A DNA stretch of 64,000 nucleotides, taken from the NCBI RefSeq assembly GCF_009363655.1, contig NZ_CP045393.1:1860001-1924000 (forward strand), read 5' to 3'. Below the pieces are notes generated by a model, which had not been told where the DNA came from, did no database searches, and worked only from the letters and a program-made list of their open reading frames with translations. Numbering within the stretch: position 1 is the first letter of the stretch; each line of letters starts with the position of its first letter. The translations under genes and the position numbers were made by a program. This DNA is from Roseovarius sp. THAF27 (GTDB lineage: Bacteria; Pseudomonadota; Alphaproteobacteria; Rhodobacterales; Rhodobacteraceae). This document shows positions 10,078 through 39,394 of this stretch, piece by piece.

Positions 10078-10905
10078 ATGACTGGCGCAGGATCTTTTGT
10101 GATCGGCACGCTTTCGGCGGCGCTGATCTTTTGCAGTTCGGTGCGGGCGCAGGACAGTGACAGCGATCGACTTATCGCCCTCATGCGCATTGGCGATACA
10201 GTTGAAATCATGCGCGAGGAAGGCTTGCGCTATGGGGCCGAGATCGGCGCCGAGATGCTTCCCGATGTGTCACCCGACGACTGGAATCGGACCGTGTCGC
10301 GTATCTATGACGCCGAGAAGATGGAAGCGGTCATCACGCAAGGATTCGAGTCCGCGCTGGACGGCGAGGATGTCGCCCCTCTGGTCTCATTCTTCGAAAG
10401 CGACCTGGGCAAGGAAATCATTGGTCTCGAAATCGACGCCCGCGAAGCGTTCCTGAGCGAAGAAACCGAACTTGCCGCGATCGACGCCTACCAGGACGCG
10501 CAGGATCAGCAAACCGAGCTTTTCAAACAGGTCGAGACCATCATCGCCGACAGCGACCTTGTTGAATACAACGTCATGGGCGCGATGAACGCCAACCTGA
10601 TGTTCTATCGCGGTCTTGCCGACGGCGGCGCCATCGACCTGGGAGAATCCGACATGCTGGCCGATGTCTGGGCGCAGGAGTCGTCCATACGCGCGGAATC
10701 CGAGGCATGGCTGGGCTCATTCCTGATGACCGCCTACCGACCGTTGCAAGCTCAGGAACTGGCCTCTTACGCCGAGCTTTACCGCACCGACGAGGGCCGA
10801 GTTCTGAACACGGCCGTATTCAACGCCTACGACCGGATGTACGATGAAATTTCGTATCTGCTGGGGCAGGCGGTGGCTGAACACATGCGGAGCGAAGAAC
10901 TTTGA
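10078..10905 (+). CDS. DUF2059-domain secreted protein (second of tandem pair)
   Basis: This 275-residue protein has a signal peptide (FVIGTLSAALIFCSSVRAQD) and mirrors its upstream neighbour segment by segment: for example MEAVITQGFESALDGEDV with a following SFFESDLGKEIIGLEID matches the DILSETLSDEHLSHAAEF and YASPLGQRLVEAE region. It begins six bases after the first gene ends, so the pair is co-transcribed. The two have diverged strongly, which points to an old duplication. The role is unknown; the location should be periplasmic. Confidence 0.65.
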   Translation: MTGAGSFVIGTLSAALIFCSSVRAQDSDSDRLIALMRIGDTVEIMREEGLRYGAEIGAEMLPDVSPDDWNRTVSRIYDAEKMEAVITQGFESALDGEDVAPLVSFFESDLGKEIIGLEIDAREAFLSEETELAAIDAYQDAQDQQTELFKQVETIIADSDLVEYNVMGAMNANLMFYRGLADGGAIDLGESDMLADVWAQESSIRAESEAWLGSFLMTAYRPLQAQELASYAELYRTDEGRVLNTAVFNAYDRMYDEISYLLGQAVAEHMRSEEL

Positions 10906-10971
10906 CGCCATCCGGCAGTCGGCCAATGCCGGCAGGGTCCTGAAAATCCGCTTTTGCGGCGGGTGCAAGGC

Positions 10972-10999
10972 TTGACTTTGGAGCGCACCCCTAGGATAA
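10972..10999 (+). promoter_or_regulatory. candidate sigma-70 type promoter for rplU-rpmA
   Basis: TTGACT at 10972-10977 and GGATAA at 10994-10999 are 16 bases apart, about 130 bases upstream of rplU. The -35 is good, the -10 is weak. No other candidate of this quality lies in the 223-base gap. Confidence 0.4.
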
Positions 11000-11128
11000 G
11001 CGGCCATCCCGGCGGGGTGACTCGTGCGGGATTTAATCTTTTACGCCCCTCGGGGGCGCGCCGTTCGAGGCACCTAACGCCGGTTGATCCCGGGGCCACA
11101 GAACGCGGAAGACAAAGGGAAGCGAAAG

Positions 11129-11866
11129 ATGTTTGCGGTTTTGAAAACCGGCGGCAAGCAGTACAAGGTCCAGTCGGGCGATATGCTGCGCGTCGAGAAG
11201 CTGGCAGCGGATGCCGGCGAGAAAGTCCAGTTCAACGAGATCCTGATGCTGGGCGGCGATAGCCCGGTCGTCGGCGTTCCGCTGATCGAAGGCGCGGCCG
11301 TTCAGGCCGAGGTCGTCGATCAGATCAAGGGCGACAAGGTCATCAACTTCGTCAAGCGCCGCCGGAAGCACGGCTCGCAGCGGACGCGCGGCCATCGCCA
11401 GCAGCTGACGCTCCTGCGCGTGACCGAGATCCTTGAAAAAGGCGCGGACAAGTCGGGCGTGAAGGCTGCGGTCGGCGCCAGCGCACTGGCCGTCGGCATG
11501 GGCAAGACCCGCTATGCCGACAACAAGGCCGAGCAGGCCGAGATGGCCAAGCGTGTGAAGAACGACGAAGCCAAGGAAAAGAGCGTCGCCAAGAAAGCCG
11601 AACCCAAAGCCGAGAAGAAGGCCGAGGAAAAGAAGGCTGCCCCCAAGAAAGCCGCCAAGGCCGAGGGTGGTGACGACCTGAAGAAGCTGTCCGGCGTGGG
11701 TCCGGCGCTGGAAAAGAAACTGCATGAGGCAGGCGTGACCACGTTTGCCCAGATCGCGGCATGGACCGCCGATGACATCGCCGAGATGGACGAGAAACTG
11801 TCCTTCAAAGGCCGCATCGAGCGTGAAGGCTGGGTCGAACAGGCCAAAGAACTGGCTAAAGGCTAA
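11129..11866 (+). CDS. rplU: 50S ribosomal protein L21 with C-terminal helix-hairpin-helix extension
   Basis: Residues 1-103 are ordinary L21 ([18 protein letters not shown] at the start, [17 protein letters not shown] near the RNA-binding end). L21 normally stops there, but this protein runs to 245 residues: an Ala/Lys/Glu-rich charged linker (about 120-180) leads to a compact domain with [19 protein letters not shown], a helix-hairpin-helix fold also seen in other alphaproteobacterial proteins. The start at 11129 is the conserved family start. It is followed after 11 bases by rpmA, the usual partner. Confidence 0.95.
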
Positions 11867-11877
11867 GGAGAGACGAT

Positions 11878-12147
11878 ATGGCACATAAGAAAGCAGGCGG
11901 TTCATCCAGAAACGGTCGCGACTCGATCGGCCGTCGTCTTGGCGTCAAGAAATACGGCGGCGAAGCCGTGATCCCCGGCAACATCCTGGTGCGTCAGCGC
12001 GGCAACAAGTTCTGGCCGGGCGACGGCGTGGGGCAGGGCAAGGACCACACCCTTTTCGCGACTGTCGAAGGCGCCGTGCATTTCCGCAAGGGCCTGAAGG
12101 GCCGTACCTTTATTTCGGTTCTCCCGGTGGCGGAGGCCGCCGAGTAA
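11878..12147 (+). CDS. rpmA: 50S ribosomal protein L27
   Basis: An 89-residue L27 beginning [16 protein letters not shown], with [21 protein letters not shown] in its beta-barrel. There is no N-terminal cleaved extension of the Firmicutes type. The N-terminal tail reaches the peptidyl-transferase centre. GGAGA lies just before the start. Second gene of the rplU-rpmA operon, closed by the terminator at 12175-12204. Confidence 0.97.
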
Positions 12148-12174
12148 GCCGAACCTTCAAGGCAAGATATTCAG

Positions 12175-12204
12175 GGGGATCGGCACATCGCCGGTCCCCT
12201 TTTT
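12175..12204 (+). terminator. rho-independent terminator of rplU-rpmA
   Basis: A ten-base-pair stem, GGGGATCGGC (12175-12184) with GCCGGTCCCC (12190-12199) including one G-T pair, is closed by a five-base loop and followed by five T residues. It lies 28 bases after the rpmA stop. Confidence 0.85.
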
Positions 12205-27870: not shown

Positions 27871-28339
27871 GGCGACCTCTTTGCCGAACACATCATGGCA
27901 AGGGTATACTCATGCGGTCGGATGTCGAGGGCGACGCCACGTGACATGGGCGCTGAAAGGCGTGCATCGCAGGGTGTCTTAGAGGGGTGTCGAATGCCGG
28001 GCGAAAGCGACTCGAAGCTACGGTTTTCTGGGTTATGACAGCGGGCCGTGGCAAGCAGGCCGGACCCAACCGCCGAGAATTTCCGACCCAGACCAGACCT
28101 TGGGCGTGGAGCTGGCGAGGGTCCACTATACAGGTCGAAGCGGACGTTGTTTTCTGACGGCGATGTGCGGCGGGCTTTGCCCTTGTTCCGCGCAGGTGCT
28201 TTGTAACTATGGCAATAATGGGCTCCTCCCGTCAGTCTCTGCACTGTCCACGAAGGTCCGTCTTCGTGTGCAGTTCGCAAGCCGGGTCAGCGACATGACG
28301 CAAAAGTCAATTTCGCCTGACGTCCAACAAGGGGGGAAG
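27871..28339. other. gene-free left flank of the integrated element
   Basis: This 469-base stretch between iorA and the left attachment repeat has only poor reading frames. It must contain the iorA promoter (minus). Before integration this DNA lay directly downstream of the tRNA-Arg gene now found at 39318-39394. Confidence 0.5.
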
Positions 28340-28354
28340 TGGCGGACCGAGGAG
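28340..28354 (+). repeat. attL: displaced tRNA-Arg 3' end
   Basis: TGGCGGACCGAGGAG is identical to the last 15 bases of the tRNA-Arg gene at 39318-39332 (CCA, discriminator, acceptor strand). Similarity extends with mismatches a few bases to the left (GGGGAAG against GGTGAAA), and stops right after. Confidence 0.85.
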
Positions 28355-28406
28355 CGCCGGAATTTGCGTTGCGGTAAGTCTCAAATTGTCCTAAAATATT
28401 CAATAT

Positions 28407-28427
28407 TGTCAACCAATTGGGAGACAT
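28407..28427. promoter_or_regulatory. operator-like repeat upstream of the integrase gene
   Basis: TGTCAACCAATTGG followed by three other bases and ACAT. The same 14 bases and ACAT occur at 29686-29706 before alpA. The core CCAATTGG is palindromic. It lies upstream of the integrase start. A shared regulator (AlpA or another HTH protein) may bind both sites. Confidence 0.5.
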
Positions 28428-28483
28428 TCCTAGAGTGGGTAGTCTCATGCTGTCCCACCCTGTCTTATCACTTCTCCCGGCTG

Positions 28484-28506
28484 TTGGGGGAAAATTTGGG
28501 GGAACG
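28484..28506 (+). repeat. left copy of a 23-bp direct repeat near the element's ends
   Basis: A G-rich 23-base stretch with two runs of GGGGGAA matches 39241-39263, close to the other end of the element, at 20 of 23 positions. Both copies are in the same orientation and just inside their boundary. Possible integrase arm-binding sites. Confidence 0.4.
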
Positions 28507-28512
28507 AAAAAG

Positions 28513-29673
28513 GTGGGAAACCTAACTGCCAAAAAAGTGAATGCTGCCACGGAAGGTGTACTGTTCGATGGCGAGGGTCTGTACCTGCGGGTGAAGAACG
28601 GCGGGTCTCAAAAATCGTGGGTGCTGCGCACTACGTTCCAGCGACGGCGGATAGACGTGGGGCTTGGGTCTGCCCGTCTGTTCTCCCTTGCCGAGGCACG
28701 CGAGGAAGCGAGGCGGTTGCGCAAAGAGGCGCGGCTGGGCACCGATCCGCGCCGGGCACGGCGCTGCGATCAACTGACGTTCCGGCAAGCTGCGCACCGG
28801 GTGCACAAGAAGATTGGTGAGACGCTATCCAATGACAAGGCGCGGGCGCAGTGGTTCACCACCATTGAGACGTACGCACTGCCGATCTTGGGCAGGCTGC
28901 CCATCAAGGACGTCACGCGGGCGGACGTGCTGCGGGTGTTGGAGCCGATCTGGACCACCAAGCACGTGACGGCAAAACGGCTGAGCCAGCGGTTGGCCCG
29001 GATATTCGACTGGGCCAAGGGCGCAGGGCACTACCACGACGAAAACCCGCTGACCGGCATCAAGGCATCGCTGCCCACGGTCAAGCGCAAGGCCAAGCAC
29101 CACGCTGCCATGCCGTGGCAAAACGTGCCTGCCTTCTTTGGAGAGTTGGGCACGCGCGAGGGCGTATCGGCCCGCTGCTTGGAACTGATCATCCTGACCG
29201 GCGTGAGGTCTGGCGAGGCGCGGGGCGCACGGTGGGAGGAGTTCGACATGGAGGAGGGCGTGTGGACCATCCCGGCGGAACGCATGAAGGCACGGGAAAC
29301 GCACCGGGTGCCTTTGACGGAGGAAGCCAAGGCGGTGGTAGAGCAACTGCGCGGCCTGCATGGCGACGTGGTGTTCCCAAACCGGCAAGGCAGGGTTGCC
29401 AGCGACATGGTGTTCAAGGCGTTGCTCAAGCGCATGAAGTGCGAGGGCTTCACGGTGCACGGGTTCCGTAGTTCGTTCCGTGACTGGGCCGGGGAGAGTG
29501 CCCACGCCGACCGCGTTGTGGCGGAAAAAGTGCTGGCGCACGCGGTGGGTGACGACACCGAACGGGCCTACGCGCGGTCCGACCTTTTTGACCGCCGCCG
29601 CGAACTGCTTGAAATCTGGTCACAATACGTCACGGGCAAGTCTGGCGACGTGATCAAACTGGCCAGACGCTAG
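28513..29673 (+). CDS. tyrosine recombinase, P4-type integrase
   Basis: 386 residues from GTG 28513. The N-terminal DUF4102 arm-binding region (GVLFDGEGLYLRVKNGGSQK) leads to a SAM-like core-binding domain and the catalytic domain with the tyrosine-recombinase residues: Arg in LTGVRSGEARGARW, H-x-x-R in VHGFRSSFRDWA, His in LAHAVGD, and Tyr in the ERAYARSD segment. It would insert the element at the tRNA-Arg 3' end. Starts at 28417 and 28447 are possible in frame but add residues not seen in the family, and they overlap the G-rich repeat. Confidence 0.93.
   Translation: MGNLTAKKVNAATEGVLFDGEGLYLRVKNGGSQKSWVLRTTFQRRRIDVGLGSARLFSLAEAREEARRLRKEARLGTDPRRARRCDQLTFRQAAHRVHKKIGETLSNDKARAQWFTTIETYALPILGRLPIKDVTRADVLRVLEPIWTTKHVTAKRLSQRLARIFDWAKGAGHYHDENPLTGIKASLPTVKRKAKHHAAMPWQNVPAFFGELGTREGVSARCLELIILTGVRSGEARGARWEEFDMEEGVWTIPAERMKARETHRVPLTEEAKAVVEQLRGLHGDVVFPNRQGRVASDMVFKALLKRMKCEGFTVHGFRSSFRDWAGESAHADRVVAEKVLAHAVGDDTERAYARSDLFDRRRELLEIWSQYVTGKSGDVIKLARR
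28794..28804. repeat. GCACCSGGTGC motif, copy 1
   Basis: GCACCGGGTGC within the integrase gene. One of seven copies in the element. Confidence 0.6.
29301..29311. repeat. GCACCSGGTGC motif, copy 2
   Basis: GCACCGGGTGC within the integrase gene. Confidence 0.6.
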
Positions 29674-29685
29674 CACCCAAGGCAG

Positions 29686-29706
29686 TGTCAACCAATTGGT
29701 TTACAT
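29686..29706. promoter_or_regulatory. operator-like repeat upstream of alpA
   Basis: TGTCAACCAATTGG plus three bases and ACAT, identical in 18 of 21 positions to 28407-28427. Here the centre is part of a longer palindrome, AACCAATTGGTT at 29690-29701, extending to 18 bases with one mismatched pair. It lies 22 bases upstream of a good -35 for alpA. Confidence 0.55.
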
Positions 29707-29727
29707 AGCAAAAACAGTGCCTTACGA

Positions 29728-29756
29728 TTGACTTTTCATCTCGTTCCGTCTAAAAC
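29728..29756 (+). promoter_or_regulatory. sigma-70 type promoter for alpA and following genes
   Basis: TTGACT (29728-29733) and TAAAAC (29751-29756) are 17 bases apart, with transcription expected near 29763 and the alpA start at 29787. The operator-like repeat is just upstream. Confidence 0.55.
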
Positions 29757-29786
29757 AGTCCGGCTTTAACGGAACGGGGTGAAACG

Positions 29787-30011
29787 ATGCAGACCCAGCT
29801 TATCAACGACAAGGACGCGGCGGCCATGCTGGGCTGCGCCCGGTCCACTTTCTGGCGGTGGGTGTCTAGCGGCGTCATGCCCCAGCCGATCAAACTGGGC
29901 GGCATGGCCCGGTGGTATCAATCCGAAATCGAGCAAACGATTGCGGCGGCGGCTGAAAAAAGCCGTGGCCCAAAACCCGCACCCAACGTGCGCCGTAGGA
30001 GGACTGCATGA
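29787..30011 (+). CDS. alpA: AlpA-family regulator/excisionase-like HTH protein
   Basis: 74 residues with the AlpA/MerR-like winged helix: LINDKDAAAMLGCARSTFWR then WVSSGVMPQPIKLGG and ARWYQSEIEQ. Such proteins switch on integrase/excision and satellite genes; AlpA is a hallmark of Gram-negative PICIs. GGGGTGA precedes the start. Its stop overlaps the next gene's start by four bases. Confidence 0.88.
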   Translation: MQTQLINDKDAAAMLGCARSTFWRWVSSGVMPQPIKLGGMARWYQSEIEQTIAAAAEKSRGPKPAPNVRRRRTA

Positions 30012-30484
30012 TGAACTCTATTCGTGAGCGCATTGTGCGCGAACTGATCCGCCGTGTCGAAGCCAGCGAATTTGAGAACGTCGCTTTTGACCGCGTTGTT
30101 CGGACAGATATCCCGGAAGATTACGACGCGACCCGGGGCAGCCTGCTGGCGGTGCTGGAAGGTGACGAGGTCTACACGCCGACCACGGGCAGCGTACAGG
30201 AGATGACATTTGAACTGTTTCTGTCGTTTGCGGTGCCGCTGGCGGCGGGCGAGGAGGCGCAGGCCGTGGCCAACAACGTGGCTGCCGAGGTTATCAAGGC
30301 GTTCACAGGCGACCACACGATAGAGGAGGGCGGCAAGGGCACGGGCGGCAAGAAGCTGGCCAACGGCTTCACCCCGATACGCACCAGACCCGACCTGACC
30401 GACGACATGGACAATTGCGCGGCTGCAACCGTGGAATTTCAGGTCCGCTACCGGACGCGCACCAACGACCTGTTCGCGGCGTAG
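30008..30484 (+). CDS. putative phage connector or tail-terminator-type protein
   Basis: 158 residues beginning MMNSIRERIVRELIRRVEA. The alpha-then-beta pattern with VEFQVRYRTRTNDLF at the end resembles small neck or tail-terminator proteins (gpU-like) of HK97-type phages, in which a strand-rich core follows an N-terminal helix. I do not recognise a family with certainty. It begins inside alpA (four-base overlap) and is nine bases from the next gene, so the three are one operon. Confidence 0.45.
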   Translation: MMNSIRERIVRELIRRVEASEFENVAFDRVVRTDIPEDYDATRGSLLAVLEGDEVYTPTTGSVQEMTFELFLSFAVPLAAGEEAQAVANNVAAEVIKAFTGDHTIEEGGKGTGGKKLANGFTPIRTRPDLTDDMDNCAAATVEFQVRYRTRTNDLFAA

Positions 30485-30493
30485 GGGGCTGCC

Positions 30494-31045
30494 ATGCTGG
30501 AAATTGAACGCAAAGGCGGCAAGACCGCGCCGCGCTTCGACCGCATCAATGACGCCGCCCTGCTACGTGCTGGCGAACGCGCCATGGACAAGTATCTGGC
30601 AAGCGTCACCGACACCGTGGCCAAGCGCACCCGCAAGGGCAGCGACGGCGAAAGGCGGTTGCGCGATTACGACGTGACCAGCGCACCCGGTGCGGTGGAA
30701 GGCAAGGTAACACTCACGCCCGGGCTGGGCCTACAGGAGACCGGGGGGGTGATCCGCGCTCGGAATGTCACTTACATGACAATTCCCTTGAAGGCGGCCC
30801 GCAAGCCCGACGGCACACCGCGCAAGGTCCGGGCGAGGGAATGGCGGAATACGCGGGTGATCCGTTCTCCGCGCGGCGTGCTGTTGATCGTGCAGAAGCG
30901 TGGACGGCGCGACGTGCCCCTGTACGCCCTCAAGAAGCAGGTGAGGGTTCGCGCCCGGCTGGGCCTGCGCAAAGAGATGGGCAAGCAACAGGGCGTGTTC
31001 TGGAAAGAGGTCGGGAAGGAAATCAGCAGGTTAGTTGCCGGATAG
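30494..31045 (+). CDS. putative phage morphogenesis (neck) protein
   Basis: 183 residues, strongly basic (RGRRDVPLYALKKQVRVRAR near the C-terminus). It may belong to the DUF6441-like set found in head-tail joining clusters; the assignment is tentative. GGGGGCTGCC precedes the start and it follows the 158-residue gene after nine bases. A terminator-like hairpin comes straight after the stop. One copy of the GCACCSGGTGC motif lies in it. Confidence 0.4.
   Translation: MLEIERKGGKTAPRFDRINDAALLRAGERAMDKYLASVTDTVAKRTRKGSDGERRLRDYDVTSAPGAVEGKVTLTPGLGLQETGGVIRARNVTYMTIPLKAARKPDGTPRKVRAREWRNTRVIRSPRGVLLIVQKRGRRDVPLYALKKQVRVRARLGLRKEMGKQQGVFWKEVGKEISRLVAG
30683..30693. repeat. GCACCSGGTGC motif, copy 3
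   Basis: GCACCCGGTGC inside the neck-type gene; here the frame reads Ala-Pro-Gly-Ala, unlike the other copies. Confidence 0.6.
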
Positions 31046-31046
31046 T

Positions 31047-31070
31047 GTGGAGTTGCCACTCTCCACTTTT
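31047..31070 (+). terminator. weak rho-independent terminator
   Basis: GTGGAG (31047-31052) pairs with CTCCAC (31061-31066) over an eight-base loop, followed by four T. It begins one base after the stop of the preceding gene. Confidence 0.5.
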
Positions 31071-31605
31071 GGTGTTGCGGGTCGGTCCGCCCTGCTACTA
31101 AGCTATGGATGTGAGACCACGCTGTAACAGGGCGGACCTTGCCCCTGCCAGTGAAACTCGGGGGCCACTATATCTAGTGGTTCCCGAACCTCACAGCTAG
31201 ATCATCCCCCATTATAAAGGCTGAAGAAAAGGCTAAAATTACTCGCCGAGTGATCTTCTTAAAAGAAACCCTTGAAAATTCATATATTTCAATGACTTGC
31301 GGGTGGTGCAAAGTGTGCACCGCATGTGACACTTACTTGGATTAGTTTAGCAATGTTGCAAATCCCATTAGGTCCCACTGGGTGGCAATGAGTGCGTATC
31401 GGTCCCTAAGGGTAGCTTTGGATACTTCGGCAGTGCTCGGAAGCTCTAATAGCAAAATGAAGTAAACTCCGGCGAATCACTCTGACCTCTTGCGTCCTGA
31501 TGGTGGTAATATGATACCCCATTAAGGGAACCCTGTTGGCCCGCTCATGATCCAGACACCGGAGCGGGGATGACGGGAACTCTTTAATCTCTCGCGAGGG
31601 TGAGG
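31071..31605. other. long AT-richer non-coding region before the terminase gene
   Basis: Five hundred and thirty-five bases with no credible gene in a tightly packed element. It holds a perfect 11-bp inverted repeat GGTCCGCCCTG/CAGGGCGGACC at 31084-31094 and 31128-31138, and a hairpin at 31165-31180 (CCACTA/TAGTGG). The sequence turns AT-rich around 31200-31340. Phage packaging sites lie near terminase genes, so a cos/pac site is a candidate, with promoter elements for the head operon. Confidence 0.5.
31084..31138. repeat. perfect 11-bp inverted repeat
   Basis: GGTCCGCCCTG (31084-31094) and CAGGGCGGACC (31128-31138) are separated by 33 bases, in the non-coding region before the terminase gene. 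They could form a stem in RNA or be a protein site. Confidence 0.5.
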
Positions 31606-33165
31606 ATGAACGCAACGACCGCTATAGCGCACCCGGTGCGCATGGCCCCTAGGGTCAGGAAACGTGCCCCCATGGAGGTGCGTGTTGCCCGGTGGCTGGC
31701 TAAAACGTTCGTGATCCCGTCCGGTATCAGCCAAGGCCAGCCGTTTGAGTTGCAGCCCTTCCAGATGGAACTGCTGCGCGAGTTTTTCGCCAAGGACGGG
31801 CAATCCCCCAAATGGCGGGCCATTGCTTACAGCATCGCCCGGAAGCAGGGTAAGACCATGCTCATGGCCGCGCTGTTTCTGGCGCTCATGTGCCCTGACA
31901 GCCCGGCGCACCAGCCGAACTTTCGGGGCAGTATCGCGGCCCCGTCCGAACGCCATGCCTTGTTCGTGCCCAACGCCATGCGCGACCTTATGGAAGCCGC
32001 CGGGCGGGCGGAGGAATTGAAGCGCAGGGCGGACCCTAAGCCGGGCATCATCTACATCGGAAACGCCACGCTGTTGCTATCCACCGGCACACGTTCGCAG
32101 GGGCACGGTCAGGACTGTGACCTGATCTGCATAGACGAGTGTGGGCTTCTATCGCAGAACCAGACCGAAATGGTTGACGGTATGACAGACGCAATCGCTA
32201 CGCGTGACGGCCAAATCCTGTATGTTGGGACGCGAGGCGACGGCGCGTTTTTCAACGACATTCTGGACAACCCGGACCCGCGCACCTGCGTCATACTCTA
32301 CGCCGCCGACAAGGGCGACGACATGTCGGACCCCGCCGTGTGGCGGAAGGCGAACCCCGGCCTTGGGACCATCAAGCCTGTCCGTTTCATGAAGGATGCG
32401 CACGACAAGGCGGAGCAATCGGGCAGCATGACTGCCTTTGGCGCGTGGAACCTCAACATGCCTTTGACGCCCGGCAGGGAATTGCTGATCGACTACGAAA
32501 CACTTGCCAAGGCGTATCGTAAAGACGCTGAACCGATCCCCGGTGAGCCGGTGCATATCGGCATCGACCTTGGCGGGTCTGCCAGCATGACAGCGGCCAC
32601 GGTGGCCTACGAAACCTCTGGCATCATCAAGGTGCTGGGGGCGTTTCCCGGCGCGGCGTTGTCCCTTGAAGAACGCGGCAAGCGCGATCTGGTGGGGGAC
32701 CTATGGGCGAGGTGCGCCGCCGCCGGGGAACTCATTGAGACGAGCGGTTCCGTCTCCGATCTGGCGGAGTTTCTGCCGGAGTTGATTGAGCGCGTCGGCC
32801 CGCACCCGGTGCGTTCGGTGTCCTGCGACCGATACCGGCAGGCGGAGTTTGAAACGGCCCTCGCGCGGTCGCGCATTGCATGGCCAATCATCTATCGCGG
32901 CACCGGCCCCAAAGACGGCGACGCCGACATTCGCGCGACGCGCCGTCTTTTCATCGCCGGGGCGGTCACGCTCAAGCGTTCATTGCTTTTGGAGGGCAGT
33001 CTTGCGGAGGCGGACGTGAAGGTTTCGACCACCGGAGCGTGCCAGCTGCAACGTGCCCACCAGACGGCGCGGATAGACGTGGTTTCCAGTCTTGTACTGG
33101 CGTGCAGCGCGATGCTGCGGGCGCGGGATGCGGTCAAACCGGAATACACCGTGGAGGTGCTTTAG
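31606..33165 (+). CDS. phage terminase large subunit
   Basis: 519 residues. The ATPase half has a Walker A-like ARKQGKTML and Walker B CDLICIDECG with the catalytic Glu; the RNase H-like nuclease half shows GIDLGGSASM and, near the end, RIDVVSSLVLACSAM with acidic residues. It packages DNA into proheads and cuts it. I start at ATG 31606 after GAGGGTGAGG; GTG 31600 is also possible. No small terminase gene lies beside it, which is unusual. It leads the head gene cluster. Confidence 0.88.
   Translation: MNATTAIAHPVRMAPRVRKRAPMEVRVARWLAKTFVIPSGISQGQPFELQPFQMELLREFFAKDGQSPKWRAIAYSIARKQGKTMLMAALFLALMCPDSPAHQPNFRGSIAAPSERHALFVPNAMRDLMEAAGRAEELKRRADPKPGIIYIGNATLLLSTGTRSQGHGQDCDLICIDECGLLSQNQTEMVDGMTDAIATRDGQILYVGTRGDGAFFNDILDNPDPRTCVILYAADKGDDMSDPAVWRKANPGLGTIKPVRFMKDAHDKAEQSGSMTAFGAWNLNMPLTPGRELLIDYETLAKAYRKDAEPIPGEPVHIGIDLGGSASMTAATVAYETSGIIKVLGAFPGAALSLEERGKRDLVGDLWARCAAAGELIETSGSVSDLAEFLPELIERVGPHPVRSVSCDRYRQAEFETALARSRIAWPIIYRGTGPKDGDADIRATRRLFIAGAVTLKRSLLLEGSLAEADVKVSTTGACQLQRAHQTARIDVVSSLVLACSAMLRARDAVKPEYTVEVL
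31629..31639. repeat. GCACCSGGTGC motif, copy 4
   Basis: GCACCCGGTGC, within GCGCACCCGGTGCGC, in the terminase gene start region. Confidence 0.6.
32802..32812. repeat. GCACCSGGTGC motif, copy 5
   Basis: GCACCCGGTGC inside the terminase gene. Confidence 0.6.
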
Positions 33166-33167
33166 CC

Positions 33168-33527
33168 ATGGCCCGGACAAGTACCGCCCCTCTTAAGACT
33201 GCCCGCTGGGCCGCCGTCCGGGCGTTCGTGGCGCATCGGGCTTCGTTCCGTTGTGAGCATTGCAACGTCTTTCTGGGCATGGCTGGCGACGTGGACCACG
33301 TGGTGCCCCGGTCCGCAATCAACGCTTGCGGCATCGGGGTGTTTGACCCCTCCAACTGCCAGTACCTTTGCCAGTCCTGCCACAGCACCAAGACCAATGC
33401 GGAACGCAACGCGGGCCGCGAGAAGCGGGCGCGTGTGCCCCGCCGAACCGCCTTAAAGGGACGAGGTGCATTCCTCGACGCTGCGGGCATCACACCTCAA
33501 ATCGAGCAAGAGGAAACACCATGTTGA
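33168..33527 (+). CDS. HNH endonuclease
   Basis: 119 residues with the HNH fold: CEHCNVF, DVDHVVPRSAIN with the general-base His, and NCQYLCQSCHSTKTNAE with the zinc Cys pairs and last His. HNH proteins beside terminase are needed for cutting at cos in HK97-type phages and are also found in capsid-forming islands. It starts two bases after the terminase stop and overlaps the capsid gene by seven bases. Confidence 0.88.
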   Translation: MARTSTAPLKTARWAAVRAFVAHRASFRCEHCNVFLGMAGDVDHVVPRSAINACGIGVFDPSNCQYLCQSCHSTKTNAERNAGREKRARVPRRTALKGRGAFLDAAGITPQIEQEETPC

Positions 33528-34783
33528 AAAGCCAATCTATCCAACTCGAACAGTCCAAGCGTCGGGAACGCCTTGCCGAACTGTCCAACACCGAAGAACT
33601 GTCGGAAGAAGGCCGCTCCGAAATGCGTTCGTTGACCCAAGCGTATCAGGATGGGGAAGTCGAACTGCGCGCAGCGCTGGTTCTGGAAGAAGCCGAGCGC
33701 GAAAAAATCGCCGAACCCGACAAGCAACAGACAGACTTCGACCGCGAGTGTCGCAGCTTCGACCTGACCGCCGTTATCGGTTCGCTGGTGGACGGCAAGC
33801 CGTTGAGCGGGCGCGAGGCCGAGGTGAACGAGGAACTGGAAAGCCGCCACGGTGTTGGCCAGAAGGGCGTGCGCTTCCCGTGGGAAAGCCTGCTGGAAAC
33901 CCGCGCCGACGCCGTGACGGACAGCAGCGCGGGCACGTCTGGGGAACTGGCCAGCCGCCCGACCATGAACGCCTTGGAGCGGTTCTTTGAAACCTCTGCC
34001 GCTGGCCGGTTCGGCGTGAACGTCATGCAGGTGACGGGTGCTCCCAGCTTCCCGGAAATCACCGGCGGCGCTGGCCTGTCGTGGGTCGCGGAGGGCGAGG
34101 GTGCCGACGCGGACGCTATCAGCACCACGGCGAAGCAGCCTGCCATTCATACGGCGACGGGCCGCTACCTGCTTTCGCGGCAGGCAATCCGCCAAAACAG
34201 TGCCCTGCAATCCATCCTGCGCCGCGATTTGGCGGAGGTGCTGCGCGAGGGCATCGACCTTGCCATTTTCCAAGGCACCGGGGCGGATGAACAACCGGCA
34301 GGTTTTGAGACTGTCCTGACAGGCGGGCGCACGGCTGCTCTGGACGACGTGGCCAGCTTTTCGGACTTCCTGCTGCGGGCCACGGAAATTCAGGAAACCG
34401 CCAAGCTGAGCACCCCGTCGCAGGTGCGCATTGCCGGTGCGCCGATTGTCCACCAAACGCTGGCGGATACTCTGATCAGCGGCACTGCTGTGTCCGAACT
34501 GGACCGGCTGAAAGGGGCAGGCTTTGCCACTTTGTGGTCCAGCCAGGTATCTGCCCGTGGGGCACGCGATGAAACCGACAAGGGCGCGTCCACCGTCTAC
34601 TTCGGGGCCGGTTCCAACAATGCCTATGTGCCCACGTGGGGCAGCCCGGAATTGATCGTGGACCCGTATTCGGAGAGCAAGACGGGCAAGGTGGCGTTGA
34701 CGATGTTCGCCTTCCTCGACGTGCTCATTCAGCGCACGGCCACGCACTACTTCAAGCTGACCGGCGTGCAGGACCGCGCGTAA
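33521..34783 (+). CDS. HK97-family major capsid protein
   Basis: 420 residues. A charged helical delta/scaffold part (about 1-110, RRERLAELSNTEELSEEGRS) is followed by the HK97 fold: RPTMNALERFFETSAAGRFG, SWVAEGEGADADAIS, ATGRYLLSRQAIRQNSALQS, and the C-terminal IVDPYSESKTGKVALTMFAF. The prohead protease encoded next would remove the first part. It overlaps the HNH gene. Unusually, capsid comes before protease and portal. Confidence 0.88.
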   Translation: MLKSQSIQLEQSKRRERLAELSNTEELSEEGRSEMRSLTQAYQDGEVELRAALVLEEAEREKIAEPDKQQTDFDRECRSFDLTAVIGSLVDGKPLSGREAEVNEELESRHGVGQKGVRFPWESLLETRADAVTDSSAGTSGELASRPTMNALERFFETSAAGRFGVNVMQVTGAPSFPEITGGAGLSWVAEGEGADADAISTTAKQPAIHTATGRYLLSRQAIRQNSALQSILRRDLAEVLREGIDLAIFQGTGADEQPAGFETVLTGGRTAALDDVASFSDFLLRATEIQETAKLSTPSQVRIAGAPIVHQTLADTLISGTAVSELDRLKGAGFATLWSSQVSARGARDETDKGASTVYFGAGSNNAYVPTWGSPELIVDPYSESKTGKVALTMFAFLDVLIQRTATHYFKLTGVQDRA

Positions 34784-34785
34784 CC

Positions 34786-35373
34786 ATGGAAAATCGGGCA
34801 ACATGGGCGGCGGGGCTTGAACTCCGCCGCCAAGGGAAACGGCCCGTGATTGCGGGGCGTTTTAATTTCAATGAGTTAGCCACGCTGGCGGACCGTGGGC
34901 GGGTGAGAAAAGAGCGGATTGCGCCCGGTGCTTTCGACTTCACGTTGCGGAATGAGGACCGCGAAGTGAACCTTCTCTTTGGGCACTCTTTCGACATGCC
35001 TCTAGCGTCCCGCCGCAACGGGTCGCTGGTGCTGCGGGCAGACGATGAAGCTTTGACCTTTGACGCCACGATTGATCCTGCGTTGGAGGACGTGACGCAC
35101 ATCCGTGATGCGCTGGCGATGCTGGGGGCTGGGCTTGTAACCGGAATTTCGCCGGGCTTTCGGGTACCACCGAAAGAAGCAGTGCCGGATAACGAACGGC
35201 TGGACCCGGAACCCGGCAATCCAAAAGTTCTTATTAGGACCATTCTGGCACTGGTTCTTTACGAGTTATCGCTGGTCACGCGGCCTGCATACGAGGCCAG
35301 TCAGGCCGAACTGCGGGCACTGCAGCAAGCCGCGCACCCGGTGCGCAACAAGCCGGGGGTGTGGTTGCCATGA
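34786..35373 (+). CDS. HK97-family prohead protease
   Basis: 195 residues of the herpesvirus-like assemblin fold: VIAGRFNFNELATLADRGRVR, RIAPGAFD, then the catalytic His in LLFGHSFDMPL and Ser in TGISPGF. It processes the capsid protein during maturation. It starts two bases after the capsid stop and overlaps the following connector gene (ATGA). Confidence 0.85.
   Translation: MENRATWAAGLELRRQGKRPVIAGRFNFNELATLADRGRVRKERIAPGAFDFTLRNEDREVNLLFGHSFDMPLASRRNGSLVLRADDEALTFDATIDPALEDVTHIRDALAMLGAGLVTGISPGFRVPPKEAVPDNERLDPEPGNPKVLIRTILALVLYELSLVTRPAYEASQAELRALQQAAHPVRNKPGVWLP
35334..35344. repeat. GCACCSGGTGC motif, copy 6
   Basis: GCACCCGGTGC within GCGCACCCGGTGCGC at the end of the protease gene. 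Confidence 0.6.
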
Positions 35374-35723
35374 GTTACCCAGAGATTGACCATACCGAAA
35401 TCGCTCTGGAAGCAGGCGTGTCTGCCGAGCGCGCCGAGGCGGTGCTTGCGGCAAGCTGGAAGCTGGCAGAGGCTTTCACCGGGCAGGTGTACGATGATGC
35501 AACGCCGGGCGCTCACGTGCTGGAGGCGGTGCGTTGCCTCGCCTTGTACCAGTTGATCCACAGCCCGGCGCGGCGCGAGTTTCGCGTGATCCAAGCCGGG
35601 GACAGCATTTTGACGCGGCAAGCCTTGGGGCCGCTTTTCCAGCAGTCGGGCGCGGGCATTTTGCTGGCCGGTGACGTAATTTGGGGAGTGGGAACCGATG
35701 TGGCCCTTCAAGACGAAAACTAA
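35370..35723 (+). CDS. head-tail adaptor (gp6-like connector)
   Basis: 117 residues, all-helical at the start (DHTEIALEAGVSAERAEAVL, LEAVRCLALYQLIHSPA), as in HK97 gp6/SPP1 gp15 adaptor rings, which sit under the portal. The start at 35370 overlaps the protease stop. It overlaps the portal gene by 26 bases. The family call rests on position and pattern. Confidence 0.6.
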   Translation: MSYPEIDHTEIALEAGVSAERAEAVLAASWKLAEAFTGQVYDDATPGAHVLEAVRCLALYQLIHSPARREFRVIQAGDSILTRQALGPLFQQSGAGILLAGDVIWGVGTDVALQDEN

Positions 35724-36723
35724 GCCCGACATGGAACAGCGTGCGGCCTTTCCGGCGGTAACAGAAGCCTATCTGTCGCATAGACAGACCACCCTGCAAA
35801 GCGATGGCAGGGCGGCCCTGTCTGCGACCGTGGCCACGTGCGCGGGCTTCTGGTCGCGAGGCTTTGCCATGCTAGACCCCAGCCCCGATGCTGGGCCGCT
35901 GACGGCTGACGTGCTGGCCGCCATTGGCCTTGACCTGTGCTTGCGCGGGCAAAGCTGCTGGCACGTCAGGGTGGAGGGCAACAGCCTGACCCTGCACCGG
36001 GTCGCGTATTGGGACCACGTTGGACGGAACAGGTACCACCTTCACCTTGCCCGGCCTAACGAAACCGAAACGGTGAAGGCGCTGGCTGACGAGGTGCTGC
36101 TGCTGACGATCAACAGCGCCGCTGAAACCCCGTGGGTTGGCCGCAGTCCGCTGGTCATGGCCGGTGGTTCGCCGTCGCTGGTGGCGGAAATCGAGGCGGC
36201 TATCAGTCGGTCTACGGAATGGATGGGACGGGGCTTGCTTCCCTTTCCCGACAGTGTGCCGGAAGATCAATCTTCGGCGGCATTACGCGGTCTCAAAGCT
36301 GGCGGAACGCTGGCGGCGATCCGGTCCAAGGCGGATTTTGCGACCAACGTGGGGCAGCCCAACAGGCAAGACTGGTCACGCACGGAACTTGGCCCCGATC
36401 TTCGCAAGGCTGATATCAACCCCTTTACCGACGCGCTGCACCAACGCGTGCTTTCGGCGGCGGGGGTGCCCCCTGCGCTTGTCACTGGGCAGGGTAACGC
36501 CGGGGCCATGCGCGAGGCGTACCGGCTCTTTGTCTTGCAGACCCTTGAACCTATCGCACGCCAGCTTGCCAGCGAATTTGCCAAGGTTGGCGTCACGGGC
36601 ATGTCGTCTGCTTCGATGATGGCCAGCGACACGGCAGGCCGGGCGCGGTCTGTGGGGGCACTGGTCAAGGCGGGCGTGGACTTGGAGCGGGCCATGCGCT
36701 TGGTGGGCTGGTCCGATGACTGA
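35698..36723 (+). CDS. HK97-type portal protein
   Basis: 341 residues, somewhat short for the family. MWPFKTKTKP at the start, GLDLCLRGQSCWHVRVEGNS and LTINSAAETPWVGRSPLVMA in the body, and HQRVLSAAGVPPALVTGQGNAGAMREAYRLF, the typical portal segment near the wing/stem. It forms the dodecameric DNA-entry ring. It overlaps the adaptor before it and the closure protein after it (eight bases). Confidence 0.82.
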   Translation: MWPFKTKTKPDMEQRAAFPAVTEAYLSHRQTTLQSDGRAALSATVATCAGFWSRGFAMLDPSPDAGPLTADVLAAIGLDLCLRGQSCWHVRVEGNSLTLHRVAYWDHVGRNRYHLHLARPNETETVKALADEVLLLTINSAAETPWVGRSPLVMAGGSPSLVAEIEAAISRSTEWMGRGLLPFPDSVPEDQSSAALRGLKAGGTLAAIRSKADFATNVGQPNRQDWSRTELGPDLRKADINPFTDALHQRVLSAAGVPPALVTGQGNAGAMREAYRLFVLQTLEPIARQLASEFAKVGVTGMSSASMMASDTAGRARSVGALVKAGVDLERAMRLVGWSDD

Positions 36724-37102
36724 CCATATCCGCCAAGCGTTCATCCGGGCCGCCGAGCACAGCCCCTCTTACCATCTGTTCACGCTCTACACGCAGGCCA
36801 CTGACGCGACCCACGGGCGGCCCGTCGCGGGGCGCTTCGTGGCCGTGGAGGGGCAGGTGCACGGACGGGTTAAGTTCGCAGATACCGACCAACTCAATCG
36901 CACCCTTGGCGGTGAGGTTGGCGAGGGGCAGGTGACCTTGCTGACCGAGTGGGCGTTCACGCCTGCCGCGCTTCGCGACGAAACCGGGCAGTGGTACAGC
37001 GTGACCGGAGCGCTGGGGCAGGACAGTTTGGGCGTGGGCACGCGGCTGGCGGTCAAACGCTGGGCAGGCGATGCGCCCGTGGTGGAAGATGAAGTACCCT
37101 AA
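36716..37102 (+). CDS. putative head-closure (stopper) protein
   Basis: 128 residues; strand-rich (GQVHGRVKFADTDQLNRTLG, EGQVTLLTEWAFTPAALRDE). The position after the portal and the size match phage head-closure proteins of the gp16/FII type, but I cannot name a family. It overlaps the portal gene (eight bases) and the next regulator gene (14 bases). Confidence 0.5.
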   Translation: MTDHIRQAFIRAAEHSPSYHLFTLYTQATDATHGRPVAGRFVAVEGQVHGRVKFADTDQLNRTLGGEVGEGQVTLLTEWAFTPAALRDETGQWYSVTGALGQDSLGVGTRLAVKRWAGDAPVVEDEVP

Positions 37103-37451
37103 TCCCGCGCAGGAAATGCTTTTGGCGCTGGCCGAGGAGCACGGGATAGGTGAGCAAGTGGCCGGGCTTCTAGTAGGCAGGCGGCAGAGCCTACTTTGCA
37201 ACGTCCCGCTGTCCGCGCTTTTGACGGCCCGCCGGTCGCAAATTGGTATCAGTCGTTCCAGCATGGCGCGACGTGTCGGTATCGCTAAGTCCGTATTAGA
37301 CGATCTCGAAAAGGGCGCTCCCGGTGTCGGGAAAAATCCACGGCTGCCGACGCTGCGCAAGCTGGCGGTGGGGTACCAGCTTTCGTTGCCGCAAGTGCTT
37401 GTCGCGGCCATACACTCCATGGAGGCAGCGCACCGGGTGCGCAAAAACTAG
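37089..37451 (+). CDS. XRE-like helix-turn-helix regulator
   Basis: 120 residues. The central segment SQIGISRSSMARRVGIAKSVLDDLEKG (split here by a helix turn; SRSSMARRVGIAKSVLDDLE is the HTH part) and the following PRLPTLRKLAVGYQLSLPQV resemble Cro/CI-type regulators. I start at ATG 37089 after GGTGGAAG; ATG 37071 is in frame too. Translation would be coupled to the preceding gene. It may repress from the palindrome at 37465-37482. Confidence 0.65.
   Translation: MKYPNPAQEMLLALAEEHGIGEQVAGLLVGRRQSLLCNVPLSALLTARRSQIGISRSSMARRVGIAKSVLDDLEKGAPGVGKNPRLPTLRKLAVGYQLSLPQVLVAAIHSMEAAHRVRKN
37430..37440. repeat. GCACCSGGTGC motif, copy 7
   Basis: GCACCGGGTGC at the 3' end of the regulator gene, within GCGCACCGGGTGCGC. 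Confidence 0.6.
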
Positions 37452-37464
37452 CACCACATATAGG

Positions 37465-37482
37465 TTGTAAATTTATTTACAA
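37465..37482. promoter_or_regulatory. 18-bp perfect palindromic operator
   Basis: TTGTAAAT-TT-ATTTACAA, eight-base perfect arms with two central T. It lies between two HTH genes, 120 bases upstream of the second, in a AT-rich promoter-like gap. A dimeric repressor is the likely binder. Confidence 0.6.
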
Positions 37483-37601
37483 CACAACATGTGCTACACG
37501 ATAAGCCGGTTTGTAGTATAACCCGGACATGCGATGTTTAGCACTGATTACGTGCGCCTCTTATCCTACACTGCCCTCTCTCGCATTGCTTGGAGGCTGA
37601 T

Positions 37602-37958
37602 ATGGACGAGGAAAAAGCACTGGAATTTACGCAGGCATCGGCTGCGGTCATGGAACTGGTTTTCCGCAGCAAGGGGCGGTTCCGCAACTCTGAGATTGAG
37701 TGCCTGACGGTGGTGCACGATCACACGCTGGGCGAGTTGCGGTACTTCGCGCCCATCTCACGCACGGACTTTCTCAGGGAGACCGGGTTATCCCAGCCGT
37801 CTGTCACAACGGCTCTGGGCCGCCTGTTGGCTGCGGGCGTGGTGATCCGGTTCAGGACGGACGGCAGGGGAAAGCGGGTCAACGCGGGTCCGCCGCCGTT
37901 CGTCTACAAGATCGACTTGGCGGCGGTGCGTCGGCTGCTGCACAGGGACGCCGCATGA
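37602..37958 (+). CDS. winged-helix regulator (MarR-like)
   Basis: 118 residues. RTDFLRETGLSQPSVTTALG and RLLAAGVVIRFRTDGRGKR give a helix-turn-helix followed by a beta wing, as in MarR/ArsR-type or phage regulators. The start at 37602 has GGAGG five bases before. Its function in the element is unknown; it could control the following unknown gene. A GC-rich hairpin comes five bases after the stop. Confidence 0.6.
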   Translation: MDEEKALEFTQASAAVMELVFRSKGRFRNSEIECLTVVHDHTLGELRYFAPISRTDFLRETGLSQPSVTTALGRLLAAGVVIRFRTDGRGKRVNAGPPPFVYKIDLAAVRRLLHRDAA

Positions 37959-37962
37959 AAAA

Positions 37963-37987
37963 GGCCCGCTCGGGACATGAGCGGGCC
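37963..37987. terminator. GC-rich hairpin, possible bidirectional terminator
   Basis: GGCCCGCTC (37963-37971) pairs with GAGCGGGCC (37979-37987), seven-base loop. Five A precede it, which gives a T-run in minus-strand RNA; on the plus strand only two T follow, so read-through or attenuation is possible. Confidence 0.5.
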
Positions 37988-38031
37988 TTCACCAACAAAG
38001 AGGTCATTCCAGTTACAGCAAGGAAAATGAC

Positions 38032-38772
38032 GTGACGACACTATCCGAAAGCATAGGTCAGCGCAAGCCGAACATTCGCCGCCGAGTGAAGGAAACTCCG
38101 GCATTCCGCGCTGACGCGCAGGCGAAGTTTGACCATCTGTGTGACCTGATCCGCGAATTGTGCGCGGCGCAGCCCTACAGCTTCGAGGGGTACACGTGGG
38201 CACCGCCGCTGTCGCAGCAGGAATGGGCGGACAGGGTAGGGGTGCACCCCCGGACCCTGCGGCGCTACATCAAGACCGCCCCGGTGGTGGCGACGACGCG
38301 CGGCATGTCACGCGAAAAGGTGACGTTACTGCGGATAGGACAGCCCGCCACGGGGCAGAACCTGCGCAAGGTGGCCAACACGTTGTCGAAGCAGTGGCGC
38401 ACCCACATGGAGCGCGAAATGACGACGCACCGCGAGTACGGTCTGCTGTTCGGGCTAGCCGAGGTGTGGCCGGAGGGCTGGCAACCGCGCATCCTGACAC
38501 ACACGCTGGTGCGGTGGGGCGACTTCGTGGGGGCGGCCAAGCTGGAAATGACAGTGGCCAACGCCAGTCTGGACGAGGACGTGTTTTCGCCGGAGGCCAT
38601 GGCCGACCCGCTGCTGGCTACAGCACGCATGTTTCCGGGTGAGCAATTCGACGTGGGCCGCCGCCTGCGTCACCCCAACCTAGGTTTCCTGCGGAAATTC
38701 CATCACGTGGCGTTGGACGTATTCATGGCGCACCGGCAGGAAACCGGGCAAAAATGCCCGCCGTGGCAATAA
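38032..38772 (+). CDS. unknown satellite protein with HTH; possible replication initiator
   Basis: 246 residues from GTG 38032 (AAGGAAA upstream; the ATG four bases earlier runs into a stop). A helix-turn-helix is seen near residues 60-85: LSQQEWADRVGVHPRTLRRY. The rest (WPEGWQPRILTHTLVRWGDF, RLRHPNLGFLRKFHHVALDV) is not familiar. Its place at the element's end, next to AT-rich inverted repeats, fits a replication initiator, but this is only a positional guess. No primase/helicase gene exists in the element. Confidence 0.45.
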   Translation: MTTLSESIGQRKPNIRRRVKETPAFRADAQAKFDHLCDLIRELCAAQPYSFEGYTWAPPLSQQEWADRVGVHPRTLRRYIKTAPVVATTRGMSREKVTLLRIGQPATGQNLRKVANTLSKQWRTHMEREMTTHREYGLLFGLAEVWPEGWQPRILTHTLVRWGDFVGAAKLEMTVANASLDEDVFSPEAMADPLLATARMFPGEQFDVGRRLRHPNLGFLRKFHHVALDVFMAHRQETGQKCPPWQ

Positions 38773-38812
38773 CTGTCCGAATTGTCTTCTCTGTATATCT
38801 CAACCACGTTTG

Positions 38813-38877
38813 AATGGTTCTTTCTATCTTTTATGGCAGGGACAAGATAATTAGGACAGAAGATAGAGAGAACCATT
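38813..38877. repeat. 18-bp inverted repeat, origin-like
   Basis: AATGGTTCTTTCTATCTT (38813-38830) is matched by AAGATAGAGAGAACCATT (38860-38877) with one mismatch, around a 29-base centre. An outer set TGTCC-AATT-TCTT also recurs in inverted order. It begins 40 bases after the 246-residue unknown gene. Confidence 0.6.
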
Positions 38878-39177
38878 GCTGCACCCGGCGCGGTGCGCCG
38901 TTCGCAGCTACGGCAGGTATCCTCAATTCCATGGCATCGGCTTCGCCATGGGGCAGCGCCCACGCCACACGCGCGAAGCGCAGCAACGCCACCCCCGCCG
39001 CGCAGCGGCCTTGCCATAGGAGCCGGGCACCCCGCGCCGCAGGGGAGGCGCTGGCAGCGCCAGCAGGGGGCCTTCTCGCCATTCCCGGCTAGGGCAGCCT
39101 ACCAGCACCCCCGAGACCGCCCTGTGCGGGCCGTACAGCGCCTCTGGCGCATTTGGGTCTGACACACGGAATCACGG

Positions 39178-39215
39178 GGCAAATCACCCACGGGCACGCG
39201 TAGGCAAATCACCTA
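39178..39215 (+). repeat. direct repeats near attR
   Basis: GGCAAATCACCCA (39178-39190) and GGCAAATCACCTA (39203-39215), 12 of 13 bases the same, 25 bases apart. Spacing and place near the boundary suggest integrase arm sites. Confidence 0.45.
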
Positions 39216-39240
39216 ATTTGTCCCATTTAGTCTCAGAAGT

Positions 39241-39263
39241 TTGGGGGAAATGGTGGGGGAACG
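39241..39263 (+). repeat. right copy of the 23-bp G-rich direct repeat
   Basis: Matches 28484-28506 at 20 of 23 positions. It lies 55 bases inside attR. With the left copy it may be a pair of binding sites for recombination or regulation. Confidence 0.4.
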
Positions 39264-39317
39264 CCCACCCCGAAAATCGCGTAAGCTTCTGTATTTATTA
39301 GCTTATTCGGGGTGAAA

Positions 39318-39332
39318 TGGCGGACCGAGGAG
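39318..39332 (-). repeat. attR within the tRNA-Arg 3' end
   Basis: The 15-bp sequence TGGCGGACCGAGGAG, identical to attL. The identity ends at 39333. Confidence 0.85.
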
Positions 39333-39394
39333 GATTCGAACCCCCGACCCCCTGATTCGTAGTCAGGTACTCTATCCAGCTGAGCTATCGGTCC
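39318..39394 (-). tRNA. tRNA-Arg(ACG), integration site of the element
   Basis: Read on the minus strand: GGACCGATAGCTCAGCTGG at the start, anticodon loop CTACGAA (anticodon ACG), T-arm GGGTTCGAATCC, encoded CCA at the end. The 77-base gene is intact; its last 15 bases also occur at 28340-28354. Integration at its 3' end therefore kept the tRNA whole. Confidence 0.96.

Follow-up and report, generated by a model that had tools for sequence, protein, structure and literature searches.

The window analysed here is a stretch of 64,000 nucleotides from contig 1 of the 4.46-Mb genome of Roseovarius sp. THAF27. Within it, at positions 28340-39332, lies an element of ~11 kb (10,978 bp from repeat to repeat) that an earlier note on this DNA took for a tailless phage satellite encoding its own capsid, fully bounded and with its genes intact. 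The ends given there, 28340 and 39332, are exact to the base, marked by a 15-bp direct repeat. Three of the four same-genus stretches compared (L112, L113, and L115) hold the empty site: each carries the 2Fe-2S gene of the left flank, the same tRNA, a histidine kinase, and LpdA, uninterrupted by any element. At this site the fourth stretch, L114, carries a different tRNA. The bases to the left of attL, the left attachment site, resemble those to the left of the tRNA in the congeners' empty sites. All genes of the element lie on the plus strand and all reading frames are open. Thus, att repeats at both ends, empty sites, and open frames uphold the description of a bounded element with intact genes.

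Genes of the island

Profile hidden Markov models (HMMs) confirm the integrase, AlpA-like regulator, large terminase (TerL), HNH nuclease, HK97-type capsid, protease, and portal that had been named before, the portal falling just under the Pfam cut-off (Table 1). Against the PDB, the capsid profile has a sole match, 8gta, a major capsid protein. The HNH endonuclease presumably serves in packaging. Of the proteins previously called connectors, neck proteins are indeed present, but one is tail terminator-like and the open reading frame (ORF) at 36716-37102 is stopper-like. The head-tail adaptor candidate has no HMM match and none against PDB sequences, and the fold of g183, the gene beside the terminator-like gene, has no PDB match. 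We note that the adaptor candidates of the window and of the relative L027 (2753-3100) are without ~65 internal residues of the other aligned relatives.

Pfam and PHROG profile scans of 15 element ORFs gave no match to tail-tube, tape-measure, fibre, or lysis families, in keeping with the earlier note. Nor do tail genes hide among the supposed connectors: the adaptor candidate, stopper, terminator, and gp22-like protein are all of neck or tail-completion type. A primase had also been denied. None is encoded, but XRE, RepO/MarR-like, and rep-like genes lie in the right arm, and thus replication initiation may be encoded. An Rfam scan returned the tRNA as its sole match.

The likely reading of this gene set is an intact-looking, head-forming satellite, one that would supply its own HK97-type head, its own motor of TerL and HNH, and its own neck, and would take tail and lysis functions from a helper phage. 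The proposal of a tailless, capsid-encoding satellite is supported insofar as the tests run revealed neither full-tail relatives nor hidden tail genes.

Table 1. Features of the element, in window coordinates
Feature	Position	Strand	Basis or remark
attL core, 15 bp TGGCGGACCGAGGAG	28340..28354		identical copy at 39318-39332
Tyrosine integrase	28447..29673	+	PF00589, PF13356, PF22022; PHROG 1 E 2e-51
Palindrome GCACCSGGTGC, 7 copies	starts 28794, 29301, 30683, 31629, 32802, 35334, 37430		span 28794..37440
AlpA-like excisionase/regulator	29787..30011	+	PF05930, PHROG 66
Tail terminator-like neck protein, 158 aa	30008..30484	+	PHROG 4204 E 2e-9; profile homologue of RcZahn gp23
g183, homologue of RcZahn gp22	30494..31045	+	39% over 133 aa, E 5e-18
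Non-coding, A+T-richer region, strong hairpins	31046..31599		candidate packaging, replication, or control region
Large terminase, HK97-type	31600..33165	+	PF20441 E 6e-15; PHROG 9 E 6e-54; 26% to HK97 TerL
HNH endonuclease adjoining terL	33168..33527	+	PF01844, PHROG 333 E 7e-17
HK97-fold major capsid protein, 420 aa	33521..34783	+	PF05065; PHROG 617 E 2e-24
Prohead protease	34786..35373	+	PF04586 (Peptidase_S78) E 3e-22
Head-tail adaptor candidate, 117 aa	35370..35723	+	role by position; family called in 24 loci
Portal protein	35698..36723	+	PF04860 37.8 bits (cut-off 39.1); PHROG 12
Head-closure/stopper neck protein g128	36716..37102	+	stopper-like fold
XRE-type regulator	37089..37451	+	PF01381 E 5e-7
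MarR/RepO-like winged-helix protein	37602..37958	+	PF12802 E 1e-6; PHROG 678 weak, E 0.005
Rep-like protein, 246 aa	38032..38772	+	homologues in L027, L028, L040, L048; weak helix-turn-helix matches only
attR core	39318..39332		inside 3' end of tRNA-Arg(acg)
tRNA-Arg(acg)	39318-39394	minus	attR core at 3' end

Related elements and tailed phages

Family loci come from three named genomes or metagenome-assembled genomes (Tateyamaria, a Rhodobacterales metagenome-assembled genome, and Jannaschia pagri). Viral contigs were sampled as well, 20 by portal and 80, kept of 499, by capsid; locus counts include near-copies. The portal has 143 relatives at E 1e-3, and the organisms among the best 120 of these 143 matches we take to be Rhodobacteraceae or unranked relatives. 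At E 1e-5, the capsid finds a match in 23 of 198 genomes of the family (5 of these weak, at 24-27%, and resembling other phages), and the portal profile does so in 40 of 292 genomes of the order, a count that pools close and distant groups and whose satellites were not individually verified. A class-level search at 1e-10 yielded 3 of 385 genomes, the window's own included.

Eighty-one loci are at least 8 kb long. A capsid match is present in 80, accompanied by terL, protease, and portal in 79 and also by HNH in 61. The joint occurrence of terL, protease, and portal in 79 of 80 capsid loci makes the cassette more than chance. By portal identity the loci form two groups, the close group A (44-70% in the loci compared) and the distant group B (about 26-36%). 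A tRNA lies in 32 of the 80 capsid loci, and a tRNA-anchored direct repeat reaches across the cassette in 15 rows, which represent 14 distinct relatives; the repeats are 46-58 nt long in ten and no longer than 15-19 nt in the other four. Counting the window's, the 15 distinct bounded elements measure 9,707-11,082 bp and occupy tRNA genes of nine amino acids. The earlier note had advised looking for the same gene set in other Rhodobacteraceae, and this recurrent cassette in bounded elements of 9.7-11.1 kb is what the search returned.

The 14 bounded relatives contributed 146 non-core ORFs of at least 60 aa. These match 21 Pfam families. The PF00589 integrase accounts for 14 ORFs; the other matches are a few gp6-like connectors, one head-completion protein, helix-turn-helix domains, and single primase-type domains. 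No tail or lysis Pfam family occurs among the 146 ORFs, and no tail or lysis PHROG among the 25 listed of their 69 PHROG families. By phmmer, 13 of the 14 have an integrase, L091 giving no match. Viral contigs with a related capsid are under 20 kb in 78 of 80 cases, and the short ones may be mere fragments. The longest contigs of portal relatives peak at 10.3-11.15 kb (13 among the best 120 of 143), which is only suggestive. No terminal repeats that would speak for free circular forms were found on the 20 viral contigs L030-L049. The group-A element in L034, a locus taken from a 34-kb viral contig, is followed downstream by another integrase ORF, possibly that of a neighbouring island.

The satellites set themselves apart from tailed phages in gene order and in capsid lineage. 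Their order is terL-HNH-MCP-protease-adaptor-portal (MCP, major capsid protein), unlike that of the tailed phages fetched, in which terL (where in the stretch), portal, and protease/capsid succeed one another. The different gene order claimed by the earlier note therefore stands as far as these tailed phages are concerned. In the capsid tree, a 100/99 branch parts 25 satellite capsids (15 of group A, 10 of group B) from 10 others, which are four isolate phages and six weak genome matches; the program warns of long branches. Capsid identity to isolate phages is 24-26% among the matches listed. By tblastn, isolate phages have no portal match and no terminator match. Among plasmids, one record matches, at 30%.

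These data bear on the idea that the element is a truncated or decaying prophage whose tail and lysis genes were lost in this strain. Tailed-phage-type head and neck genes without tail genes would fit that idea, as would the lack of any other match to a phage capsid, portal, or PF10145 in the genome, and among the relatives L083 seems to be a true remnant and L098 has a tape-measure-like ORF. However, both att sites and all frames of the element are intact, and the relatives, inserted in tRNA genes for nine different amino acids, keep the same cassette and a narrow size range. Their capsids and those of the sampled phages occupy separate sides of the tree. No full phage with the cassette, and no full-tail relative in the same order, appeared among the 40 loci whose gene layout was examined, L098 being a partial exception, and the 14 relatives are free of tail and lysis Pfam families. 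We regard truncation as very unlikely. The apparent remnant L083 (G053) itself has a capsid fragment with stops, retains protease to stopper, and adjoins host genes.

Neck genes and the candidate tail donor

If the element is a head-forming satellite, its neck genes could reveal which tails it uses. As a query, g183 matches 8 of 50,697 phage records; all are alphaproteobacterial phages of 96.9-109.7 kb, and two records are one phage. A metagenomic phage homologue of g183 matches 12 phage records of 94-110 kb. In the Rhodobacter capsulatus phage RcZahn (MW677529, 101.6 kb), the homologue gp22, annotated as a minor tail protein, has the head-to-tail adaptor on one side and gp23 on the other, and gp22 and gp23 stand upstream of the tail assembly chaperone and tape measure. 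In phage RcTiptonus, the tail tube gene comes directly after the pair, and RHph_I4 has a like layout. In these phages, the pair occupies the interval between the adaptor (or the adaptor position) and the tail genes. The RHph_I4 homologue is 44.5% identical to g183, and that of L338C is 50% identical over 95 aa. In pairwise hhalign comparisons, the gp23 family matches the common group-A terminator with a probability of 99.7% (E 3e-27) and the window's terminator family at a probability of 96.9 (E 1.9e-10). Long viral contigs (80, 95, 43, and 24 kb) also have g183-like genes adjoining terminator-like genes, and minor-tail and tape-measure genes lie downstream of the pair in all three long viral contigs scanned.

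Thirteen RcZahn proteins, from the portal to a portion of the tape measure, were searched against 25 group-A and 19 group-B loci. In group A, gp22 has homologues in 16 of 25 loci and gp23 in 5 of 25; the other 11 proteins (portal, protease, capsid, adaptor, and tape measure among them) have no match in the 25. No RcZahn protein matches any of the 19 group-B loci. Two smaller phages, Shpa (38.3 kb) and Rivra (44.3 kb), share with group B a stopper (2/19), HNH (18/19), and TerL (10/19), and the Shpa protease and Shpa packaging protein have single matches there. In group A, only the Shpa HNH (12/25) and TerL (19/25) match. The position of the pair varies among satellites, falling in the alpA/terL interval in the window and the HNH/capsid interval in others, and where both genes are called the terminator comes first in satellites, whereas gp22 comes first in phages. 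The satellites form two clades in the gp22-like tree, but a topology uniting them is not rejected (p-AU 0.455), and thus we do not claim two separate acquisitions.

We infer that the satellite head joins the helper's tail through the terminator and gp22-like pair, and that RcZahn-type phages, of ~94-110 kb, are the predicted helper class for the window's subgroup. What links these phages to the satellites is the homologous gp22/gp23 pair at the head-tail joint; what separates them is that RcZahn is a complete phage whose 11 other tested proteins find no satellite match. PMC8601537 gives RcZahn a tail of 297 nm and reports that it appeared virulent to its authors, that it lyses some R. capsulatus strains, and that it lyses D. 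shibae only at high titre, without further cultivation.

Most probably, helper infection or induction would cause the island to excise from tRNA-Arg and replicate. TerL and HNH would then package the ~11-kb island into a small head, which portal, adaptor, stopper, and terminator would close. Subsequently, the neck pair of terminator and gp22-like protein would dock on helper tail tubes. Excision, packaging, a small head, and tail piracy are each predicted. The satellite terminator may, in addition, cap helper tails as they form, thereby setting them aside for satellite heads. More broadly, we put forward as a tentative possibility, somewhat doubtful in its entirety, that these elements constitute a large and possibly undescribed Rhodobacteraceae family of satellites, ~10.5 kb in size and head-forming, whose neck is an exchangeable, helper-matched adaptor: one subgroup would mount its small heads on the tails of ~100-kb RcZahn-type phages via the terminator-gp22 pair, and some members of the other group would carry stoppers of 38-44-kb phages.

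Capping of tails could serve another end. Specifically, the neck pair might cap the tails of infecting phages, making the island a defence device and not a tail-borne spreader. PMC11364771 describes tail-assembly inhibition systems carried by satellites and prophages, and a phage considered virulent has a homologous neck pair. Interference alone, however, would not need all of the jointly conserved genes for head, protease, portal, packaging, and integration, and we consider a purely defensive role very unlikely. The defence and tail-piracy ideas can be compatible: capping tails would both block the phage and supply tails.

The host genome was surveyed for other sources of tails. A helper prophage, which the earlier note had suggested seeking, was not found elsewhere in it with PF05065, PF04860, and PF10145; the first two families match only this element. 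A helper would therefore have to be external or lack those families, and probably is not a resident prophage of the PF05065/PF04860/PF10145 families. Tails might also come from the host's gene transfer agent (GTA) and not from a phage. Only a fused GTA remnant was seen in this genome, the cluster having seemingly collapsed to one 835-aa ORF (L111:13394-15901, own contig 1 about 1,597,393-1,599,900). It fuses a terminase N-terminus in frame with GTA_TIM, Phage-tail_3, and Rcc01698_C, as after a large internal deletion. With that remnant and no PF10145 match, a GTA source is extremely improbable. The possibility that the element itself is a GTA was rejected: GTA clusters keep a fixed chromosomal place and have no integrase or att sites, and the integrase, att sites, and empty sites found here contradict it.

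Several findings weigh against the head-forming satellite and its proposed helper. No small terminase (TerS) was recognised in the element; TerS-like matches are weak only (AlpA-like ORF to phrog_57, E 1e-3; rep-like ORF, E 0.03), and a divergent TerS is possible. The group-B locus L098 (G360) has, at 10553-12193 on the minus strand, a 547-aa tape-measure-like ORF (PHROG 973, E 1e-55), a find showing that the approach is able to detect tail genes. Located directly after the portal, this ORF could be a short-tail determinant, a decoy, or the sign of a fuller phage. The host's own genome has no resident tailed prophage by the three families above. As to the helper, the window's terminator resembles phage gp23 by profile only, and the Shpa/Rivra stopper is shared by only 2 of 19 group-B loci. 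A gp22 homologue is missing from 9 of 25 group-A loci, some of them partial contigs, and so the pair cannot be the only docking solution. Finally, gp22 identity to RcZahn is 31-39%, and thus the helper is guessed at the level of phage type only.

Known satellites and regulatory features

By gene content, the element works like the capsid-forming phage-inducible islands (cf-PICIs) reportedly described by Alqurainy et al. in 2023; the two are compared by description, and kinship by descent is only a possibility. The cf-PICIs are islands that encode capsid, protease, portal, connectors, TerL, and HNH of their own and no tail (PMC10690885, PMC10803314, PMC13230959), named mainly in Enterobacteriaceae, Pasteurella, Morganellaceae, and Firmicutes (PMC10803314). 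The likeness extends to a site-specific island with integrase, AlpA-like and XRE regulators, att repeats, and an empty site; to its own capsid, protease, portal, connectors (the adaptor by position only), TerL, and HNH; and to the absence of recognised tail or lysis genes, with helper tails the presumed substitute. The differences are a size of 9.7-11.1 kb against an average of 14 kb (PMC10803314), the lack of a recognisable TerS, and probably the gene order given above. In addition, this family has its own stopper and, in part, its own tail terminator, and its hosts are Rhodobacteraceae.

P4-like satellites and classical PICIs are likewise small islands with an integrase and an AlpA-type regulator, and they use or resize a helper's capsid. 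They have no capsid of their own, whereas this element encodes its own MCP, portal, and protease. Closer in this respect are the Streptomyces satellites MulchRoom and MiniFlayer, which, according to PMC10690885, encode packaging and capsid genes and have virulent helpers, MulchRoom being thought to use helper tails. These two differ in having a scaffold protein, direct terminal repeats, and other hosts; MiniFlayer also has a gene for a tail fibre and lacks an integration module. Charybdis elements, small marine elements of 4.6 kb, were set aside as relatives: as described in PMC12324425 they have no HK97 capsid, unlike this element. We found no report of Rhodobacteraceae satellites of this type; the cf-PICI literature was only partly covered, so "undescribed" is provisional.

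These elements add a separate capsid lineage, one that seems frequent in Rhodobacteraceae, and are smaller than the average cf-PICI. They bear on small HK97-type heads, 9.7-11.1 kb being little DNA for a tailed-phage capsid. Because the neck genes indicate a cultured phage type as a possible tail donor, the question of how a satellite head comes by a foreign tail is directly testable. The suggested rule is that helpers can be predicted from neck genes, and this neck-based prediction is the part most worth testing.

A dispersed palindrome, GCACCSGGTGC, had been missed in the earlier feature list. It occurs 7 times in the element and 0 times in the window's other 53 kb. Genome-wide (4.46 Mb) there are 17 copies, i.e., 10 outside the element, and the reversed pattern occurs 11 times in all. 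Close relatives carry it as well: L027 (4), L030 (4), L031 (5), L032 (2), L033 (5), L036 (1), and L119 (4). Its places are often alike among them, for example at terL codon ~10 and the end of the protease gene, and every other examined locus outside the own genome and the close-relative contigs has at most one copy. The XRE gene follows the stopper in the window, L031, L032, L033, and L036. Some phages carry dispersed stoperators. This pattern suggests that the copies are candidate operators of the XRE regulator, a packaging or replication role being the alternative. In the window's subclade, the regulator may thus silence the island via seven dispersed palindromic operators.

In the gap between neck genes and terL, hairpins at 31046-31200 (155 nt) have a fold z of -5.9, with 0 of 200 shuffles as stable. 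The first of these hairpins resembles a terminator. A comparable hairpin upstream of terL was not found in most relatives. The integrase start is ambiguous, its frame being open from TTG 28417 with an in-frame ATG at 28447. Outside the element, a short stretch to the left of attL (28158-28242) recurs in the own genome and in many copies in congeners.

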